Virus record (IMG/VR): IMGVR_UViG_3300046328_000207
Coordinates: 1-21,372 of that record
Direction: 5' to 3' (one strand)
DNA from: a virus
DNA: 21,372 nt
Shown here: one piece after another, positions 2,376-18,364 of the stretch
Layout of the letters: each line of letters starts with the position of its first letter
Numbering within the stretch: the first letter of the stretch is position 1
Program-made: the position numbers and the translations under genes
The notes under the pieces: generated by a model
What the model was told of the DNA's origin: nothing
The model's database searches: none
The model's input: the letters and a program-made list of their open reading frames with translations, nothing else

Positions 2376-5300
2376 TTAGCAATATATTGTTTGTTGTATT
2401 AAATATGATCCACTTGCTTGGAATGATCCTTGTACCATACATGATGTAAAAAGTATTTCTCCATCAAACATTGTACCATACGTAATACCTCCACCACCAC
2501 AATATTCGTATGAATAATCTAAAGTTCCACCTGAAGTATTTAGCACTCTCAACGTTACACAGTTTTCAGAGATACCGCAATCAACACTACAATCACCTAT
2601 ATTTTGCACTACACCGTTAGTTCCTACTTGTAAAGCTATATTATTATTGTATGAATACCAACCAGATGATGCAAATGTAGATCCTAAAGAATCTGCGTAT
2701 AAAATTGCATTTGTACTCCAATTAGAATCTACGCCCCATACAGTAAAAGAATCTGGTATACCTACTAAACCACATGATGTACATTCATCTGCGTCATATA
2801 AAATATCAAATGGATATAAAGTGTTACACACACACGTATTAATATTTGTGTAACCGATAATTATACCATTACCATCTATTTGAGCAATAGATCCTCCGTC
2901 AGAATACCAACCAGTTGAAGCATACGTTGTTCCTGTTGCGTCAGAATATAAAATAGTAGAGGATATTAAACTATTGCCATTACCATAAACTGTATTATTG
3001 TATGTAGCATCACAATATGCAACACAAGAAGATTCAATACTATATGATGTATTAATTTCATACGTTGTGATCGTTTCAGATTCTTTATAAAGAATGTCTG
3101 ATACAATATTAGGATAAAAACCTACAATAGGTTTAAAACCCGATCCAACATTAAAACTTGAAATTATAGAACCGTTGTTTTTATCTAATGCAATTAAACC
3201 GCTTGATGTAGTAGCATTTAAACCCGAGAAAGTCCCGTATGCATATAATTTGCTTCCTAGTAATTTAGATTTAACGGTTAGCGTTATACCAGAAGTTGCA
3301 TTAAATGTTCCTGGCGCAAATGTACCAACTTTATTACCATTAAAATCTAAATTTACAATTCTATCTACAGCTAATCCTTTGTATGTGGTTACATTACTAA
3401 CATATAAACTAGTACCATCTGTAACAATACTTGAAGGAATTGTAGTGCCAAATCCAGTGTCTTGATTAAATGCAGAAACTCTATTACCAGTTGTCAAATC
3501 TGCTGCAATAATATTACCACATGCAACGCCATCATAATTTGGTCTAAATTCACCAACCAAATATAATATACCATTATTAATAGCTAGACCAGTTCCTCTT
3601 CCAGTTGTAGCACCTCCACCAGAGAACTTTACAAATTTATTAGTTTCTGTTGCATTAAACGTACCATCTAAATTAAAAACAAATACAGGTGTATATGCTC
3701 CAGTTGGTGTTGGTTGACTACTATTTTTCCAATAACCAGCAAAGTATAGTAAATTGTTATGTAAAATGACATCATTAACTGTAGGTACCGTAGAACTATC
3801 AGGCGTATTTAAACTCCATGTTGCATCTACAGTACCATCTAAATTATATCTGCGTATATAAAGATCTTGTGGTATGGTACCATTTATTCCATCTGTGTAT
3901 AATTTATCATTAATAATATCAATCCATGATACATCTTTTAAAGGAAAATTATTATCAAATGTAGAATTAAAAATACCAGTATTTGATAATTTTATGATTC
4001 TTTTATTTGTTTTATTTTCTTTATAGTTTGTTGGAAATGCTAATTGACTATTATTACCATACGCAACTACAGTATAAACATTACCTGTACTATCAGAAGC
4101 TATATTAGGTACTGAAAGTACACCAAATGTACCATTAATATCACCTAATCTAAATCCTTTTTCAATATTAAAATCTATTTGTCTTGTAGCAGTATTATCT
4201 AATTTAATAATATTGTTGCTTTCAGATCCTTTATATGTTTGAAAGAAACCAGTTACGTAAACACTGCCACTGATAACTAAAGCTGTATTAACTGAAGCTG
4301 GTGTAACGTTAATATCTGGTTTTCCAAAACCTAAATCTACATTAAAAGTAGAAATTCTAGAACCATCAGTTGCGTTAACTTTAATTAAACCACTAGATAA
4401 AACATTATTAACATTTTTAAAGAAACCTGTAATTAATAAATTAGATCCATCAATTGTTATATTATTAATTCTAACATCGACATACGTTAAATTATTATCT
4501 ACAAATAATCCTGTATTAAACGTAGGAATTAATGAAGCACTGTAATCTATTTTAAAGACATTATTAATAAATGCAAATTTATATCTAGGTTCGGTAGAAG
4601 TTGTTTGTGTAATACCAACGTAAATACCAGAATCGTCAGTTTTTATAGTGGTTACAGTACCGTCTGTTAATCCAGTTCCTACAGAAAAACCAGAAGCAAC
4701 ATTACCTGTTGTAATATCTAAAGCTACTAATTTAGAACTAGCAAGTCCTTTATATGTTGTAAATGATCCTCCAACTACCAATGTCGTATTGTATAAAGAT
4801 GCTGTTAAAACTTCACCGTTAAATGCGGTTCCAAATTTAGCAGATTCTGTGGCATTAACACTACCGTTTAAATTTAATACAACTATTCTGTTATATGTAG
4901 ATCCACCAACAGTAGTAAAGCTACCAAAAACATAATAAAAATTATTATAAAAAATAATATCAGTTATAGTATCGTTAGAACTACCAAAGGTAGGTGATGT
5001 AAACGATGCATCTGTTACACCATTAAAGTCTGTACATAAAATTCTAGGCACAAATGCGTTTGTACTAAATAATTTATTGTTTGCTATAAAGACTTTAGTA
5101 GGAGGCGAAAGTACCGATGAGATATTTTTATTATAGTTAGTTGAAAATACCGTATCTAATTCACCATTTAAATTTATTTTAACAACAGCATCTAATATAG
5201 GTGTATTTTTATAATAAAGATTACCATTTGCGGCATATACTTTATTAACTGCAACAAATATAGAGCTACCGTCAGTTACACTATTGCAGACGTTTTCACT

Positions 5301-8300
5301 TCGAAGCGAACCTAATATACCATTTTTAACATCAAACTCCGTATTAATATTAGCATCATTATCTAAACCTAATAAAGATCCAATTGCTCCACCATCAATT
5401 GAAGGCCATTCACCATCTTTATATTCTGAAAAATAACCAGACACTCTAATACCACCTGAAATTGGTGCAGGATCTCCACCTGAAACATAACCAGATAATT
5501 GATATAGGTTTGCTGCTGTAATAGTTCCTGTACTATAGATTGTTCTAGAACCTGGTGTGTCATTGATGTTATAAAATACTGTTTGACCATTTACGTAGTA
5601 ATACGTATATAAATCACCATTATTGACAGTTGATGTAAATGTTGCTCTAACATAAACGCCTTCTTCTAAACCAACCGTATCCTGTACGTCTCCACCATTT
5701 GTAAATGTTAAAGTACCTACTTCAATCCAGTTAATATTGTCAAATGATTTCTCTAAAGTTGCCGTACTAATATATCCTGGTTCTGAACCACCGATACCGT
5801 ATGTAACTTGAACTGGACCGGCATCACACGCAGCACAACCTACGCAAGTATCAATGGCTGAAATAACACCAGCTGTAGTTATTCTTGCAACAGCGCTTGA
5901 TGATTCTTTATAATAACCAATTGGTGCTGGACTAGCGCCTGCATTATCAAGCCACATTAAAGTACTTGATGCTAATGAAACATTATTAGTATACACTGTA
6001 GTTGGTTCATTATAGCAACAACATGCATCGCATAAAGCGCCTGAATAGCATGTTACGTGTGGATAATATGTTACACAATTACAATCAGCTAATGAAACTG
6101 TAACTAAAACTTGACCATTTGCACCAACTTGTAACGCAGTTAAACCACCTACAATTGCATAATATCCAGTAGTTGCAGGTATTGTTAACGCTGCATCTAA
6201 AAAGAAGTATGTTGAATCGGCAAAAGTGTTTGATGCACTATAAACTACTACAGTTGGATTTGTTTGGCAATATAGGTTACAAGGTTCTGTTAAAACTCTT
6301 TCAGTCGTGTATGGATATGATACAGGCGTACAGTTACATCCAGAAACATCTGGTCTACTCTCAATAGAACCAACTCCATTTAATTCAAGAGCTGTCATTC
6401 CATCTGAGTAAATACCAGCTGGTGCAAATTGACTACCTGCGTTATCTATGTAAATAGCAGTTGCTTCAAATAAATCAATGCCATTAATCCAATATGTGTT
6501 AGACTGTGCGCCTGTATAATCTTTACAACAGTATGCATCACACGCAGTTGCTGCTTTACATAAAGAAATTTCAGTTAATTGATTTTCTACAACTAACGGT
6601 AATGTAATACCAATGTTGTTACCAACTTTGATTAACTGTACTTTACATAAAGTATTTTGACCAACGATATAGTCTTTAATCTCATTTACAAAATACCATG
6701 AATTCTCAATAAAAACATAGTCATTAAATTTAAAGTTAATTAGATCTGAATAGTCTAATTGTACTTCTAATTCTGATAATCTTGAATATGGATCAAATGT
6801 AGTGTCATACCATGATTTCCAATATGTTGTAAAACTTGTATTAGCTGTTATACCATTTCCTAATTCAGAAATCTCTGTGTCCCAATATGGTGCAACGTTA
6901 GCCCAACATAAATCTAATGTTGTAGCTGTTACAGGAAACTCTGAGTACTGACTCATTAATGGATATGTTGTTTGAGCTTGCGCGCCACCTGAATAGTCTT
7001 TACTATACCATGTTAAAGGAGCTTGTCTCAATCCATTATAAAATACCAATCTCAATTTAGGTTGTACTGGTTCTCTTTTACCCACGATTGGTGAACCTGA
7101 TGCTGCATCTTGTGAGGCACCAGTATCTTTAGCAATATGAGGTATTACAAATTTAGGTGCTTGTGTGTCACCTTCTTTGAAGCCAATAGGAGCTAATGGC
7201 GCTGCAGCAAATTGATCCTGATATGTTTTAGTACCAGTAATTAATTCGTTTACTGAGTCTAAATTTAGCTGACCAAATGTCTGCTTGTATTGTAATTGGT
7301 AATCATAATTTAAATAATCTGAATCCTCTTGATCTTTAAAGACGTTAAATCTGTTTTGAGTATAGAAGATTGGTGAAGATTTAGCATCAATAAAACCAGT
7401 TACTTTGTTAGTCCAATCGATAGCTTCACCTTGTAAAATCCAATCTTTCCATGGTGTAATAGTAAAGTGATTTGTCTTTTCTTTAGACGGTACGAATACT
7501 AATCTAAATCTATTGATAATAGATCTCATGAAATCAATAGTCCTAACGTTATTAGGCATGATTGAATTGATTGAGAATATATCAGATTGTGTTACGTAAA
7601 CTAATCTACCTGAATAAATTCTAAATTCTGTTATACCATTAGAACAACCTGTACCCGTAGCACAAGTAGAACTAATCTTGATTATAATTTGTTGACCAGC
7701 TGTAGCATTAAATGTTAAATTAGCTGGTATCGTTTGAGAACCAACATTTACATAATAACCTTGACTAGCTAATGTTTGATTTGTATTTGCATCAACAGCA
7801 CTAACAGTTCCTGCAACACTAAAATTAGCTGATCCTGAATTAGTTCCTGAACCAACGTTTAAAGTAATTGCTGCTGTATATGAACCAGTTGCGGGTATAT
7901 TGTACGTGCTTGTTCCAGGATCGTAGTTATTACCATTATCTAGGACTTCAGTTGTAAAATTAACTTTATATGAACTACCAATAGTCATGTATTGTACATA
8001 CGATGATGTTGCTTCGGCGCCATTAGCATTAGATACTGCACCTTCTGCTTTATTCTCTGTAATTACATACATCTTTTTAAATAACTCAGAGTTTAAAAAA
8101 GCTGAATCGTATGTGTAACCAACATTTTCAAACACTTTATCCCAAATGGCTTTAGCTCTAAATTGAGGTTTCCATTGAGATGTTAATAAAGGGTTTAAAC
8201 TACTTGTAAATGATTTCTCAAATCCATTAGATAGAGTTGGAATATCAGGTCTGTTGTTCTTGTCGTATGTGTAACCCCACTCAATCAATCCATACACTAA

Positions 8301-8777
8301 ATCACCAGCGAATAGATCTAAATCCCATGATTTTTGAATGTTAACTAGATTTCTTTCGTGATTGTACTCCGTAAAGTCTAATTCATTTAGGAATCCACCA
8401 CCGATTTTAGCTCCAAAGTCTGATGTTTCACCCGTAAATAGGATTTCGTATTCAATAGATCCGTCTGCGTTATTGTTAAAAACGTTAATTAATCTAATGT
8501 TACCCCTGGTAAACAATTGACCATTGTCAAGAATGTATGCATCTGATTTAATACCAGCGTCAAAGTCAGTAGAGTTAACGTTAAACACACCTTTAAAGTA
8601 TGGACCGTTAATGCTATTATGTGCAACTCTAAATGTTCTAGAGAACACCGATGTAGCAGCAAGAGGATCTTGTATGCTAGTAACCGATAATGTTAGTTTG
8701 ACTGGATCTGAATCAAATAAAGCAAGGTTGACATATTCTGTCGAACCTTGCTTTTGTGCGAATATTTGTACGCTCAT
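2376..8777 (-). CDS. Giant tail-tip / baseplate protein (2133 aa) with inserted beta-propeller and Cys-rich modules
   Basis: Residues 1 to about 720 resemble the large tail-tip (Tal-like) proteins of Bacteroidota phages: an N-terminal domain (DSDPVKLTLSVTSI ... SRTFRVAHN) is followed by a region ending in EVQLDYSDLINFKFNDYVFI. Three Cys-rich modules of about 80 residues follow (about 740-990). Next is a fibronectin-like or carbohydrate-binding-like stretch (about 995-1130). About 760 residues (1135-1895) are then built of blades with motifs such as GSFTTYKG and KLDNTATRQIDFN, characteristic of delta-60/DUF5122-type repeats that form beta-propellers. Two more Cys-rich modules come next, and a Cys-containing C-terminal cap (about 2060-2133) ends the protein. 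Its likely place is the tail tip, with the C-terminal part exposed for receptor contact; that role is inferred. The ATG at 8777 lies one base after the stop of the preceding gene, so the two are probably translationally coupled. The family assignment of the N-terminus is from memory of the pattern. Confidence 0.85.
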   Translation of the reverse strand: MSVQIFAQKQGSTEYVNLALFDSDPVKLTLSVTSIQDPLAATSVFSRTFRVAHNSINGPYFKGVFNVNSTDFDAGIKSDAYILDNGQLFTRGNIRLINVFNNNADGSIEYEILFTGETSDFGAKIGGGFLNELDFTEYNHERNLVNIQKSWDLDLFAGDLVYGLIEWGYTYDKNNRPDIPTLSNGFEKSFTSSLNPLLTSQWKPQFRAKAIWDKVFENVGYTYDSAFLNSELFKKMYVITENKAEGAVSNANGAEATSSYVQYMTIGSSYKVNFTTEVLDNGNNYDPGTSTYNIPATGSYTAAITLNVGSGTNSGSANFSVAGTVSAVDANTNQTLASQGYYVNVGSQTIPANLTFNATAGQQIIIKISSTCATGTGCSNGITEFRIYSGRLVYVTQSDIFSINSIMPNNVRTIDFMRSIINRFRLVFVPSKEKTNHFTITPWKDWILQGEAIDWTNKVTGFIDAKSSPIFYTQNRFNVFKDQEDSDYLNYDYQLQYKQTFGQLNLDSVNELITGTKTYQDQFAAAPLAPIGFKEGDTQAPKFVIPHIAKDTGASQDAASGSPIVGKREPVQPKLRLVFYNGLRQAPLTWYSKDYSGGAQAQTTYPLMSQYSEFPVTATTLDLCWANVAPYWDTEISELGNGITANTSFTTYWKSWYDTTFDPYSRLSELEVQLDYSDLINFKFNDYVFIENSWYFVNEIKDYIVGQNTLCKVQLIKVGNNIGITLPLVVENQLTEISLCKAATACDAYCCKDYTGAQSNTYWINGIDLFEATAIYIDNAGSQFAPAGIYSDGMTALELNGVGSIESRPDVSGCNCTPVSYPYTTERVLTEPCNLYCQTNPTVVVYSASNTFADSTYFFLDAALTIPATTGYYAIVGGLTALQVGANGQVLVTVSLADCNCVTYYPHVTCYSGALCDACCCYNEPTTVYTNNVSLASSTLMWLDNAGASPAPIGYYKESSSAVARITTAGVISAIDTCVGCAACDAGPVQVTYGIGGSEPGYISTATLEKSFDNINWIEVGTLTFTNGGDVQDTVGLEEGVYVRATFTSTVNNGDLYTYYYVNGQTVFYNINDTPGSRTIYSTGTITAANLYQLSGYVSGGDPAPISGGIRVSGYFSEYKDGEWPSIDGGAIGSLLGLDNDANINTEFDVKNGILGSLRSENVCNSVTDGSSIFVAVNKVYAANGNLYYKNTPILDAVVKINLNGELDTVFSTNYNKNISSVLSPPTKVFIANNKLFSTNAFVPRILCTDFNGVTDASFTSPTFGSSNDTITDIIFYNNFYYVFGSFTTVGGSTYNRIVVLNLNGSVNATESAKFGTAFNGEVLTASLYNTTLVVGGSFTTYKGLASSKLVALDITTGNVASGFSVGTGLTDGTVTTIKTDDSGIYVGITQTTSTEPRYKFAFINNVFKIDYSASLIPTFNTGLFVDNNLTYVDVRINNITIDGSNLLITGFFKNVNNVLSSGLIKVNATDGSRISTFNVDLGFGKPDINVTPASVNTALVISGSVYVTGFFQTYKGSESNNIIKLDNTATRQIDFNIEKGFRLGDINGTFGVLSVPNIASDSTGNVYTVVAYGNNSQLAFPTNYKENKTNKRIIKLSNTGIFNSTFDNNFPLKDVSWIDIINDKLYTDGINGTIPQDLYIRRYNLDGTVDATWSLNTPDSSTVPTVNDVILHNNLLYFAGYWKNSSQPTPTGAYTPVFVFNLDGTFNATETNKFVKFSGGGATTGRGTGLAINNGILYLVGEFRPNYDGVACGNIIAADLTTGNRVSAFNQDTGFGTTIPSSIVTDGTSLYVSNVTTYKGLAVDRIVNLDFNGNKVGTFAPGTFNATSGITLTVKSKLLGSKLYAYGTFSGLNATTSSGLIALDKNNGSIISSFNVGSGFKPIVGFYPNIVSDILYKESETITTYEINTSYSIESSCVAYCDATYNNTVYGNGNSLISSTILYSDATGTTYASTGWYSDGGSIAQIDGNGIIIGYTNINTCVCNTLYPFDILYDADECTSCGLVGIPDSFTVWGVDSNWSTNAILYADSLGSTFASSGWYSYNNNIALQVGTNGVVQNIGDCSVDCGISENCVTLRVLNTSGGTLDYSYEYCGGGGITYGTMFDGEILFTSCMVQGSFQASGSYLIQQTIYC
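2597..3062 (-). repeat. Cys-rich modules 4 and 5 of the tail-tip protein
   Basis: Two related protein repeats are encoded here, at about residues 1905-2060. Each has a Cys-rich lead (CVAYCDATY; DECTSCG), a strand containing LYSDATGTTYASTGWYSDGG or LYADSLGSTFASSGWYSYNN, a short IAQIDGNG or IALQVGTNG turn, and a closing Cys pair. They match the three modules on the other side of the propeller, so the propeller interrupts or is bracketed by this repeat series. Function is unknown; pairing of the cysteines or metal binding is possible. Confidence 0.7.
3080..5375 (-). repeat. Delta-60/DUF5122-like beta-propeller region
   Basis: The encoded residues (about 1135-1895) contain many degenerate blades. 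Each has a hydrophobic strand, a GSFTTYKG-type turn (variants FTTVGGSTYNR, FKNVNNVLSSG, FQTYKGSESNN, FSGLNATTSSG), and then an I.KLD/NLNG..D..FN strand. This is the signature of delta-60 repeats found in large secreted Bacteroidota proteins. The number of blades was not counted exactly. In a virion this would be a rigid disc suited to binding a surface ligand. Confidence 0.75.
5807..6557 (-). repeat. Cys-rich modules 1 to 3 of the tail-tip protein
   Basis: Three repeats of about 80 residues (about 740-990) are encoded. Each opens with a Cys cluster (CDAYCCKDY, CNLYCQTNP, CDACCCYNE). An aromatic/Asp strand follows (IYIDNAGSQFAPAGIYSDG, FFLDAALTIPATTGYYAI, MWLDNAGASPAPIGYYKES), then a Leu/Val turn with Gly, and a C.C pair closes the module. 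Spacing is regular at about 85 residues. No enzymatic residues are recognised; receptor binding or structural spacing is likely. Confidence 0.7.
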
Positions 8778-8778
8778 A

Positions 8779-10242
8779 TTATAAATTTTGCATTTTTTGT
8801 GTTGTAAATAACTTGATTTCTATTTCAGCTTGAGTTAATTTAACTTGTCTGATATTCTTTACCGAATATGAGCTGTTAACTACTGAACAAGTATATGGAA
8901 ATTCATGAGAGATCGTGTTACCATTGTCTATATATGCCATCACTTGTGGTGATTTGATTAGGCCTTCAATTAGATCTACTTGTTGCTGATCTAACCAGTC
9001 TGATTGTAATTTATATGTAACTTGAGCTTCTTTGTTAAAGATCTTTGAACCACCTTTGATTCCAAGGTTACCAATCGGTAATGAGTCGTTTAACATTGGT
9101 ACGGGTGTTGAATCTGACCAATTCATTTGCTCTTGAGCATACATTTGCTGTGATGTAGAAACTGATTTCTCTACGAACATGTTAAAGTTGGCATAATCTC
9201 TACCTCCAAGTTCATTAAACCATGAAAGTCTAACGCGACGATATAAAGGGTTTGGACATGACTCTAACACATTAATAGTTACTGTCTCTGTAACTGGAAC
9301 ACCGAATGTACAGTTATCAGTTGCTTGAGAGTAACCTGTTATTTCTATTTTAGTAGTTGGATATGATGATGTGTAACCTAAAGCTTCGTAAAGATTATTA
9401 GGTCCAGCTAACACGTTAACGATTGAATATCTTGAATCTAATTCTGAGATTGTATTCTCACAAGCTGCTCTTTGACCAAAGCCATTTGATGCAGTCATTG
9501 GTTTATCAAAAGTTTGACTAGCTCCATCTGTATCATAGATTTTAAATCTAAAACCAAAGATAGCTCTATCATTTGCATCTGTAATGTTAGGAGTCCAGTT
9601 CAAGTATGAAAGTACCATCTTGTCAAACTCATAAAGATCTTGATTTAAAGAAGCCTTCATTAATGGGTATGCAAGTCCTAAACCATGGTCGTAGTTCTTG
9701 TTACCATCAAATGGATTATCACCCCAAATACCAGATTCTGTGGTCTTTTGCATATTCCATTGCTGCTCATGATCTGTCATGGATGCATTCCAAATATGGA
9801 CAGGTGTATTAGCAGTAGTTGTATTTCCTGATGTCAGGACATAGGCAGGAGCTCCTGGCGTATCAGCAGTTCCTATATAGGTTTGTGTTATGTTGTTAAC
9901 TGTGTACTCTTCACCAACTTTTAGGTAAACCTTGCGACTCATTAAATAGTTATCAGCGAAAGTATCACCGTTGTTGTAGTTGATTGATGTTTCACCTTGA
10001 GTAATCTTTGCATCTGGTGATGCTGAATTCAAATAGGCTTGTACCAATGTAGCTACATCGATCATTCCATAACCACTGATATTGGCTCTTTGTTTAACTG
10101 TGTTAACTTTAACGTTATCTACATAAACTTCAAACACATATTTAAAGTCTGTTGAGTTAACTTTAGAACTCAATACTGACCAAATAATTGGGTTATATGC
10201 TGGTCCAGTCCAAGTCGGTTTGTATGCTACACTTGTTATCAT
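8779..10242 (-). CDS. Baseplate / distal-tail-like structural protein (487 aa)
   Basis: The N-terminus (SSKVNSTDFKYVFEVYVDNV ... ISGYGMIDVATLVQAYL) is a beta-rich domain seen at the start of tail proteins in Bacteroidota phages. The C-terminal third (CPNPLYRRVRLSWFNELGGR, then DLIEGLIKSPQVMAYI and a final IEIKLF strand) is the matching half. No transmembrane helix or signal peptide is present. The product most likely forms part of the tail tip with the 2133-aa protein encoded immediately downstream; the stop of this gene precedes that start by one base. Six bases separate the end of the -1 frame of the chaperone from this ATG, placing all three genes in one translational unit. Exact equivalence to Dit of other siphoviruses is inferred from position and fold-like pattern only. 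Confidence 0.75.
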   Translation of the reverse strand: MITSVAYKPTWTGPAYNPIIWSVLSSKVNSTDFKYVFEVYVDNVKVNTVKQRANISGYGMIDVATLVQAYLNSASPDAKITQGETSINYNNGDTFADNYLMSRKVYLKVGEEYTVNNITQTYIGTADTPGAPAYVLTSGNTTTANTPVHIWNASMTDHEQQWNMQKTTESGIWGDNPFDGNKNYDHGLGLAYPLMKASLNQDLYEFDKMVLSYLNWTPNITDANDRAIFGFRFKIYDTDGASQTFDKPMTASNGFGQRAACENTISELDSRYSIVNVLAGPNNLYEALGYTSSYPTTKIEITGYSQATDNCTFGVPVTETVTINVLESCPNPLYRRVRLSWFNELGGRDYANFNMFVEKSVSTSQQMYAQEQMNWSDSTPVPMLNDSLPIGNLGIKGGSKIFNKEAQVTYKLQSDWLDQQQVDLIEGLIKSPQVMAYIDNGNTISHEFPYTCSVVNSSYSVKNIRQVKLTQAEIEIKLFTTQKMQNL

Positions 10243-10248
10243 TTTGTT

Positions 10249-11072
10249 TTATCTTTTGTTTTGTAATTCTAACTGACGTTGCTGATTACGTTCTTTGGTT
10301 TGTTTGTCTTTTCTGTATGAGAGATAGTTGAAGAACTGTGTTGCGTTAATTCTCGTAACTTCATCAACTTTGAGTAAATCGTCTCCAGCGACAAAGTAGA
10401 AGGCATCGTTCCATCCTCTTGCAATTCTAATATGAGCTGGCTCGCTGTTTGCATTGCCAACTTTAATGTCGGATCCTTCTCCTTCAAGATCTGATTCGTC
10501 ATCTCCATCATTTGTGAGTCCGCTATAGCGTTTAGTAAATATTTTGGCATTAGCAAAAAAAAACTCAAAGCTGAATACACATATTTCAGTGGTAAATCCA
10601 AGAATTCTTTAGCTCTTGCTTCTACTGCATCTGAATCGTATGGTTCAATTGCAATCCAATCCATATTCTCGTTAATAACTGTAGCTGGTCTGTAGATTAC
10701 AGCCATCATAGTATGTAACTTTTGTTCTTTCATTGGATCTGCCTTTAAAACATCCATATCTGCGAATTCACCAATGGTAATTTTACTAAAGTCAATTAGA
10801 CCGTATGCTTTACCATTTAATCCAACGTGTTTGTATAACTTCTTGCCAGCTTCTGTGTTTAAAGGTCCTTCAGCAATACTTGCAAACAATTGCATAAACT
10901 GAAAGTGCTCTAATGTTTTTAACTCATTGATTGGACATCCGCTCAATAGGTTTATAATCTGTAACTTGGCATCAGCACCATCTACAATTAAAAGGTGCTG
11001 TATCTTGTAAAATTGTCCGATAGTTACATCAGAAATTGTATAATCTTTGCCGTTTATGTTAAATTCTATCAT
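10249..11072 (-). CDS. Tail assembly chaperone, gpG/gpGT-like, with probable programmed -1 frameshift
   Basis: The zero frame from ATG at 11072 stops at 10269 and gives 267 residues. At residues 170-172 it reads AGT TTT TTT TTG, so a T TTT TTT heptamer sits in canonical register. A -1 slip after residue 172 enters a frame open for 102 more codons, ending with TAA at 10249-10251 and giving a 274-aa product. The -1 frame has coherent protein character (RIARGWNDAFYFVAGDDLL, INATQFFNYLSYRKDKQTKE). By hand count only about 6% of its codons end in G, like neighbouring genes, against about a third in the zero frame downstream of the slip. That frame has no start of its own, since a stop lies 16 codons upstream. 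The position between tail completion and tail structural genes fits the lambda G/GT role of chaperoning the tape measure. The first 14 bases overlap the preceding gene. A sequencing indel in the T9 run is the main alternative. Confidence 0.75.
10557..10563 (-). promoter_or_regulatory. Slippery heptamer T TTT TTT for -1 frameshifting
   Basis: Nine consecutive T residues on the minus strand (10563-10555) place a T TTT TTT heptamer in the X XXY YYZ register of the chaperone zero frame. Re-pairing of both tRNAs by -1 leads into the long open -1 frame that ends six bases before the next gene. No clear stimulatory hairpin or pseudoknot was identified by eye downstream; only a short CGCTATAGCG palindrome lies at 10521-10530. 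Confidence 0.65.
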
Positions 11073-11484
11073 ATAAATAATTTTCTATAAATTCATTTAA
11101 TCCCATTTGAAGATTTTGTTGAATAAAATCATCGTATCTGTCTTGTCTATTACGTAAACTCAACCAATATTGTGGTCTAATACCACCTTTACCTTTTCTA
11201 TAAACTCTTGGTGCTTTCATACCAAAGAATGTATCGTTAGCTGCTTCAGCATCATAGTACTGTCTGGTACCAAAAGCTGTGTATTTACCGTATGATGCAA
11301 ACTCAACTTCAATGGCATCTCCTTTAGAGTCTACATTAACTCTCAACGAGTCTTTTAAAACACCAGTTGAAGGAAAATAATTAGGCAATGCACCTTTTCT
11401 AGGTATATTTCTCCTAATATCAAGCTCCATCATACGTGCAACCTTGGTTAACACATCTTTTATAGTTTTGTCTATGCCTTCCAT
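11059..11484 (-). CDS. HK97 gp10-like tail completion / minor tail protein
   Basis: This 141-aa protein has the layout of the HK97 gp10-like family: an N-terminal helix, a loop with a Pro/Gly-rich stretch (IPRKGALPNYFPSTGVLKDS), the central strand pair ending in YGKYTAFGTRQYYD, and a C-terminal helix (DFIQQNLQMGLNEFIENYL). Such proteins join the tail to the connector or complete the head-tail interface. Its ATG overlaps the stop of the preceding 155-aa gene by one base, and its own 3' end overlaps the chaperone by 14 bases, as expected for co-translated assembly factors. The length is normal for the family. Confidence 0.7.
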   Translation of the reverse strand: MEGIDKTIKDVLTKVARMMELDIRRNIPRKGALPNYFPSTGVLKDSLRVNVDSKGDAIEVEFASYGKYTAFGTRQYYDAEAANDTFFGMKAPRVYRKGKGGIRPQYWLSLRNRQDRYDDFIQQNLQMGLNEFIENYLYDRI

Positions 11485-12002: not shown

Positions 12003-13229
12003 TTATAATTCCTCAAAATTATTTCTGCGTTTACCAGCGAATGCATATTGACCTTGTTTTGGTTTACTCAGAGCATATCTGATAGCATCGATTGCGTGGT
12101 TATGATCATCTATTGGTTTGTCAGTTCCGTTCTTCCATGAGTAAAGGAATGCTTCATCGTGCAAGTCTGAACTATCAGGATGCATAAAGACTTCATACTC
12201 TTTTAGTGTGTTAATACCAGCTTGAATTGAATCAGGACCTTTGTACGCTGGTTTAATGTTAAACCCAGCTCTCTTTAATTCTTCAATAGATTTAGGTTCA
12301 GCTGAGTCTGCAATTATTTGGTCTCTATTAGTAATTCCATGCTTTTTCATCTGCTGTACCAAGTCTGCATTCGTGAGTCCTGGTGAATAGACCAATTGCT
12401 TTAAATAAAGTTTATTGTTCTTTCTTTTAACTTCGACCAGTGCAGCGGGGTCATTCGAGAAGCCAAAATCCAGTCCGTAAACTGTATCGTACTCTCCTTC
12501 AGGATCAGGTGTACCAACTTGCCAGTTATCAAAGATTCTACCAACGATACCATCTAACCATTCGCCTTCAATATGGTGTGAGTAGTACTCAGGATCTAAA
12601 CCTTTCATACGTTCCCATTCTACAATCTTCTTTGGATCTAGGTTTTCTTCATTATCTTTATAGGTTGTGTGTATAAAAACATGATCATCGAACCATTTTG
12701 AGTTAGGTCGACCATCTACATACCATCTTTTGTGGATCCAATGTCTCTTTGAAGTAGGGTTAAACAAGATAAAGACCTTTCTTTCAGCTCCTTTAGCTCT
12801 AAATGAGTCATTTAACTTGATAAATTCTTCTTCTGAAGGTAATTCTGTTGCCTCATCTATCAAAAGGTGTGTAACTCCTGCTAAACCTTTACCTTTTGCA
12901 GTCATTGTACCGTCTTGTAGTTTCATGGCGTGTGTTATAACCATGTTACCATTTAGGACATTAGTCATTTCATCACCTTCGATTTTGATAAACTTCTTGA
13001 TGTTCCAAGACTCAGCTAAATCAAGAATATCTCGATAGATTGAACTCTTGATGGACTTTTGAGTATATCGCGATACAACACCTCTAAAATATTCATCACC
13101 CATCAGCTTGATCAAAAAGTATGCAGCTGCTTGAGTAGATTTACCTGAACCTCGTCCACCACTAATCAGATAATATGTTTTATCTGACCAAAACATTGGT
13201 GAATATGGTTCAAGGATTTTAAAGTCCAT
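12003..13229 (-). CDS. terL: Large terminase subunit, PBSX/Terminase_3 type
   Basis: This 408-aa packaging motor ATPase and nuclease has a complete motif set. Walker A is GGRGSGKST (24-32), Walker B is LLIDEATE (122-129) with D125 and E126, and the coupling motif is FNPT (156-159). The nuclease domain opens with YGLDFGFSNDPAAL (D254), continues with IIADSAEPKS (D308), and ends with DDHNHAIDAIRYAL (D381). It would cut concatemeric DNA and pump it into the prohead through the portal. The gene starts 11 bases inside the preceding 67-aa gene, and the start is preceded by AAAAAAGAGATCAG, one of the few leaders with a purine-rich stretch. Length and motif spacing are normal; no break was seen. Confidence 0.95.
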   Translation of the reverse strand: MDFKILEPYSPMFWSDKTYYLISGGRGSGKSTQAAAYFLIKLMGDEYFRGVVSRYTQKSIKSSIYRDILDLAESWNIKKFIKIEGDEMTNVLNGNMVITHAMKLQDGTMTAKGKGLAGVTHLLIDEATELPSEEEFIKLNDSFRAKGAERKVFILFNPTSKRHWIHKRWYVDGRPNSKWFDDHVFIHTTYKDNEENLDPKKIVEWERMKGLDPEYYSHHIEGEWLDGIVGRIFDNWQVGTPDPEGEYDTVYGLDFGFSNDPAALVEVKRKNNKLYLKQLVYSPGLTNADLVQQMKKHGITNRDQIIADSAEPKSIEELKRAGFNIKPAYKGPDSIQAGINTLKEYEVFMHPDSSDLHDEAFLYSWKNGTDKPIDDHNHAIDAIRYALSKPKQGQYAFAGKRRNNFEEL

Positions 13230-17941: not shown

Positions 17942-18364
17942 TTACTTGCGTTTGATACCGATATCTGATCTTTGCTTTCTACCTTGTTGTATTGTAGGTC
18001 TATTAGCTTTAGCTGTCCATTGTAGATTATCAACATGATTGTTTTCTCTGTCACCGTCAATATGCTCTACAAATCGAAGTTGGTTTGGGTTTTCCATAAA
18101 GTTCTGAGCCACAAGACGATGCACATATTCACCAGTTGGTATACCTAACATTTTAGGAGATCCTACTCTACCTTTCCAAAATTGTCTGACTTCTCTTTCA
18201 CTAATTAAAGAGTTATCTTCTCTATAATGTTTTAGGATTACTCTACCATGGTTTGAGATTAACCACTCTGATAGACCTACTAATTCTGTTTTTGTACCAT
18301 TACTTTGTGGTATTCTGTAATTGATTTGTTTCTTCTTGAATGTTTTAAATTGTTCTGCTTTCAT
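17942..18364 (-). CDS. HNH homing endonuclease, NUMOD4-HNH type (140 aa)
   Basis: A short NUMOD4-like N-terminal part (GLSEWLISNHGRVILKHYRE) precedes the HNH nuclease core at residues 81-120, with VHRLVAQNFM, then VEHIDGDRENNHVDNLQW. His82, His101 and the Asn residues of the NNHVDNL segment match the metal-binding and catalytic pattern. Such free-standing enzymes nick or cut specific sites in related genomes and spread by repair. Its ATG is 2 bases after the stop of the preceding gene, and 73 bases without a gene follow it, which fits insertion between two older genes. Confidence 0.9.
   Translation of the reverse strand: MKAEQFKTFKKKQINYRIPQSNGTKTELVGLSEWLISNHGRVILKHYREDNSLISEREVRQFWKGRVGSPKMLGIPTGEYVHRLVAQNFMENPNQLRFVEHIDGDRENNHVDNLQWTAKANRPTIQQGRKQRSDIGIKRK

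Follow-up and report, generated by a model that had tools for sequence, protein, structure and literature searches.

Tail-assembly chaperones of the G/GT type, which do not occur in the virion, bind the proteins of the tail tube and the tape measure. In the textbook form one short and one extended product are made, and the end of the zero frame is usually seen as incidental. In phage lambda a −1 shift in a small tail-module gene yields protein G and a fusion with a different C terminus, G-T, with G ending 5 codons after the heptamer G_GGA_AAG. Phage P2 produces E and E+E' from an essential tail gene by a −1 shift at the poly-T heptamer T_TTT_TTG, and E ends 6 codons after it. The chaperone frameshifts of the SEA-PHAGES collection and of the phages studied by Xu et al. 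are likewise −1 shifts, and the mean distance from the slip to the zero-frame stop is 26 nt and 36 nt, respectively (PMC10885494). This distance is one of the features used by PRFect, and sites with long distances are missed (PMC10885494).

The gene described here is located on the minus strand (11072-10269) of a 21,372-base IMG/VR virus contig, the whole of which is called the window below. A T9 run was found at 10563-10555 in the context AG[T TTT TTT] TTG, and the T_TTT_TTT heptamer (10563-10557) is in register with the zero frame. The two Phe codons of the heptamer are invariant columns in the family alignment. Based on the open reading frame and alignments, the N-terminal part shared by both products (10557-11072, minus strand) has 172 codons including the heptamer. 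Past the heptamer, the zero frame has 95 further codons plus the stop (10269-10556, minus strand, ending at 10269) and gives a product of 267 aa. The −1 frame runs on for 102 codons plus the stop (10249-10557, minus strand, ending at 10249) and would give a fused product of 274 aa. The ATG of the next gene, at 10242, is 6 bases past the −1 stop. The nearest upstream stop in the −1 frame precedes the heptamer by about 15 codons, and from that stop to 20 codons past the heptamer no ATG, GTG or TTG was detected in this frame in the window or in the near-identical relative L002. Codons ending in G made up 37% of the zero-frame tail and 6% of the −1 tail, as compared to 15% of the N-terminal part and 11-14% of four other genes in the window. 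The first-pass annotation, made from the sequence alone, had described the in-register T9, a −1 frame without its own start and with few G-ending codons, a zero frame with about a third of them, both open lengths, the six-base spacing to the ATG and two products of nearly equal length; all of this was reproduced.

Like lambda G/G-T, the locus has a −1 shift in a small tail-module gene that would give a protein plus a fusion form of it with a different C terminus, and like P2 E the shift is placed at a poly-T heptamer. In contrast to the 5 and 6 codons of G and E, the zero frame continues for 95 codons in the window and is under selection. The gene also differs from lambda G in not being next to the tape measure gene, and no sequence similarity was found to either system. 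In comparison with the means of 26 and 36 nt (PMC10885494), the slip-to-stop distance was 285 nt in the window and ranged from about 75 to 320 nt across the family. The first-pass annotation, whose interpretation proved largely right, had noted that the zero frame of lambda stops soon after the slip and had called two products of nearly equal length with different C termini unusual. Of the marks of a G/GT-type gene, a slippery X_XXY_YYZ sequence joining the frames was present as T_TTT_TTT in the window and its relatives, and the −1 frame has no conserved start and carries a conserved C-terminal domain. The zero frame does not end shortly after the slip (25-107 codons in relatives), and the gene does not directly precede the tape measure gene. 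The mark of dual coding, purifying selection in both frames restricted to the overlap, was present. In the open literature, to which our search was limited, we found no description of so long a dual-coded tail in this type of gene.

A search with the single protein yielded five relatives, four of them close and one distant, and many more were found with profile searches. In total, well over 100 distinct loci had a T-run (T7-T12) at the same position, among them IMG/VR contigs, Flavobacteriales prophages and the cultured Nonlabens phages P12024S and P12024L. The carriers are a large phage group, and the hosts, where known, are flavobacteria. Prophage-like relatives come from the isolate Flagellimonas onchidii as well as from MAGs with the labels Pricia, Winogradskyella and Flavobacteriales. 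In the first set, T_TTT_TTT was in zero-frame register at the same position in 81 out of 81 loci covering the full region, with −1 tails of 92-104 codons and zero-frame tails of 37-105 codons. With a second set added, the catalogue reached 117 unique loci, and across the family the tails were 81-104 (−1) and 25-107 (zero) codons long. Zero-frame tail length followed the clades of the N-domain tree, with about 86-105 codons on the side of the window and mostly 61-86 and 47-65 codons in two other large clades. For L091, L094 and L173 the script had picked a chance upstream heptamer, and they were dropped from later counts, leaving 114 loci; L091 and L094 had T9 on inspection, and L173, seen only as GGGTTTTTTT, was set aside. 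The run was T9 in 62 and T10 in 46 of the 114 loci, T7 in three, and T8, T11 and T12 in one each. Every relative open to checking had its T-run at the same position.

A further search with the −1 tail only, in which neither the T-run nor the N-domain was required, gave 74 distinct loci. T9 was present in 70 of them and T7 in three, and the match in L268 (from the same contig as L017) starts past the run. No uninterrupted fusion frame was found among the homologues from the N-domain or the −1-tail searches; such homologues had been named by the first-pass annotation as evidence against its proposal. The comparison of T-run lengths that it had suggested gave T7-T12 at a fixed position with the heptamer in register. 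In one locus, L167, the −1 tail was mostly lost and the zero-frame tail altered in a way that resembles an internal deletion or a misassembly; this was the only such case seen.

The cultured relatives were reached solely via predicted structure, as that search pointed to Nonlabens phage P12024S, while by tblastn neither the window product nor any of three clade representatives matched a cultured phage. In P12024S (JQ823122, 23136-23830; L175) the gene follows the terminase and, as a distant member of the family, has T9 with 81 codons in the −1 tail but only 25 in the zero-frame tail. In its annotation the two frames appear as separate hypothetical proteins, P12024S_38 and P12024S_39. The latter, a 55-aa gene, shares its stop with the −1 tail, and its annotated start falls within that tail. 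P12024L is nearly identical to P12024S. A distant fold relative was seen in Flavobacterium phage 6H (KC959568, from 10927 downwards on the minus strand; L176), with T_TTT_TTC at the expected position and a −1 frame that closes immediately and reopens further down for about 100 codons.

Selection on the two frames was determined codon by codon in 26 independent pairs of relatives, counting codons with an identical −1 amino acid in both members. In the N-terminal part 36.5% of these codons differed, a change that is synonymous in the −1 frame; the share was 18.8% for the overlap and 35.4% past the zero-frame stop, where only the −1 frame is read. The overlap differed from the two other regions (Fisher, 5e-32 and 1.4e-11), which did not differ from each other, and its rate was lower in 26 of the 26 pairs. 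Along the gene the synonymous rate changed from 0.35 to 0.20 at the slip and from 0.20 to 0.45 at the zero-frame stop. Amino-acid make-up was ruled out as the cause of the low synonymous change by a Mantel-Haenszel test stratified by pair and amino acid, with odds ratios of 0.42 and 0.39 for the overlap and of 1.08 for the two control regions. Identity between relatives was about the same in the zero-frame tail as in the −1 tail. Purifying selection acts on both frames, and only where they overlap. Conservation of the zero-frame C terminus alone, the second finding that the first-pass annotation had listed as contrary, was not what we observed, as both C termini are conserved in the homologues.

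Openness of the frames was scored by fixing the protein of one frame, drawing synonymous codons at random and recording the open length of the other frame. With the −1 protein of the window fixed, the zero frame was open as long as observed in none of 4000 draws (median 13 codons), and in the converse case, with the zero-frame protein held constant, 0.3% of draws left the −1 frame open. Over all loci with the −1 protein fixed, the mean of the median zero-frame openness was 14 codons, as compared to 72 observed. Most of the 72 loci had a p-value below 0.01, and the shortest tails (47 codons or fewer) had values of 0.05-0.4; an open zero frame as a by-product of the −1 amino acids was rejected for most loci, with the exception of these short tails. 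The reverse test, with the zero-frame protein fixed, gave p ≤ 0.0135 in eight of the eight loci tried. In 110 of 114 loci, the codons of the −1 frame were closer to family usage than those of the zero-frame tail. Based on openness and codon usage, the −1 tail was shown to be the native frame and the zero-frame tail the overprinted one.

AlphaFold2 modelled the N-domain (residues 1-170) with block means mostly of 89-98 and dips to 75-79. In the model helices run through the slip into the zero-frame tail (162-197, 201-219 and 226-249), with lower confidence there, the pLDDT falling from 84 to about 50. The −1 tail was modelled as a low-confidence linker, which is acidic on family average and probably flexible, followed by a helical domain at 78-88. 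Charge pairing was considered and dropped, since the zero-frame tail of the window has a net charge of 0, though zero-frame tails are basic on average. A fold search of the PDB gave no significant match (the HK97 chaperone 2ob9 was at Foldseek rank 12, E 4.5), and VIA-align matches were restricted to the helical stretch 174-222 with Z of at most 6 and were not meaningful. No match was found by profile search against PDB sequences or by hhalign against lambda G, lambda T and P2 E. Pfam gave scattered weak matches to unrelated families, and neither a Pfam nor a named PHROG assignment was obtained.

The following neighbouring genes are all on the minus strand. Upstream are a tail completion or Neck1-like protein (11059-11484; phrog_5, E 7.5e-5) and the terminase large subunit (12003-13229; phrog_2, E 3.5e-47). 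The next gene downstream (8779-10242), which starts 6 bases past the −1 stop, encodes a probable tail protein of 487 aa, and L018 and L023 have the same type of neighbour at this place. The tape measure gene (1-2307; phrog_339, E 5.9e-9) is the third gene downstream and is cut by the end of the window. Two large genes thus intervene in the window and four in the Flagellimonas prophage, where the gene is found between the terminase and the tail genes. The second intervening gene in the window encodes a 2133-aa protein (2376-8777), and several stretches of its middle part match phrog_5490 (function not known). Elsewhere in the window a small open reading frame (17942-18364, minus strand) appeared by eye to be HNH homing-endonuclease-like (VHRLVAQNFMENP...HIDGDRENNHVDNLQW).

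The pair of products is most likely a tail-assembly chaperone by analogy with lambda gpG/gpGT, and this is our best guess because of the tail-module neighbours and the frameshift. The lack of similarity to lambda G/T, P2 E or HK97 and the distant tape measure gene count against such a role. The genomic context is what suggests it. The rarer fusion would bridge the tape measure and the tail-tube subunits, and the zero-frame protein would have a C-terminal domain of its own.

We estimate a probability of about 0.74 for the joint reading, in which a ribosomal slip leads into dual-coded tails, the −1 tail native and the zero-frame tail overprinted, in a likely chaperone pair. The majority of ribosomes would keep the frame at T_TTT_TTT and make the 267-residue protein with its helical zero-frame tail. 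A minority would slip back by one base, with two Phe tRNAs re-pairing in tandem, and make the 274-residue protein ending in the linker and the helical domain. The 95-codon overlap is dual coding, with both tails under purifying selection. The loss of most of the −1 tail in L167 and the immediate closing of that frame in phage 6H count against this reading. From the programmed −1 frameshift in a tail chaperone proposed by the first-pass annotation, the change of frame at the T-run stands, as does the long stretch of dual coding, and both were found to be family-wide, whereas the chaperone identity and the slip on the ribosome, together with its frequency, are what we infer.

The main rival to the ribosomal slip is transcriptional slippage, a known alternative among IS elements and genes for type III secretion (PMC5009743), by which the RNA polymerase would add one U at T9-T10 so that some mRNAs are read in the −1 frame. 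Genes of this kind are marked by a run of at least nine T or A and by mRNAs of mixed length. Both tails would still be made and selected, in a ratio set by the polymerase. Nearly all members have a run of at least nine T although the heptamer needs seven, T9 is found in all three codon phases, and no conserved RNA structure was found after the slip (mean z −0.09, with no peak above the rest of the gene). The run length and the missing structure count against a ribosomal slip, as does U_UUU_UUU being a weaker ribosomal slip site than A_AAA_AAG in E. coli (PMC5009743). We nevertheless favour ribosomal −1 slippage and regard slippage of the polymerase as the less likely of the two, because the T7 members (L013, L047, L065, L221, L237 and L238) and the T8 member (L079) each retain the minimal T_TTT_TTT exactly in register, and because the tail-chaperone frameshifts described so far are ribosomal (PMC5009743).

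A start codon of its own, from which the −1 tail would be made as a separate protein with no fusion, appears very improbable. The annotators of P12024S did call the 55-aa gene in that frame, and in 47 of the 114 loci the −1 frame has an ATG, GTG or TTG at the slip or ahead of it. Such a start is not conserved, however, with 56 of the 114 loci, including the clade of the window, having none near the slip; the −1 open reading frame begins 0-34 codons before the slip, and the T-run is always exactly at the frame crossing. The chance that one genuine frame has been made to look like two, through gene decay or through an error in sequencing or assembly, is negligible. Sequencing of T9 runs is error-prone, but the break recurs in well over 100 distinct loci, a cultured phage and a bacterial isolate among them, and this wide distribution rules out a sequencing error. 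A plain indel would not give two open, slow-evolving frames, and this explanation was refuted by the selection data and the −1-tail search.

The locus is a novel form of the G/GT-type tail-chaperone frameshift. On balance we think that this is a family-wide chaperone frameshift in which the unslipped product has a conserved overprinted C-terminal domain of 25-107 codons. That stretch would then encode two alternative working domains in two frames, and what the phages balance would be two full-length products of near-equal size instead of a short and a long one. The T7 and T8 members are useful natural variants for separating ribosomal from transcriptional slippage. The frameshift would explain split or missing annotations of the gene, such as that in P12024S. 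As the relatives differ in how far the zero-frame tail reaches, the family provides a natural set for studying the overprinting of a new tail on an old one.
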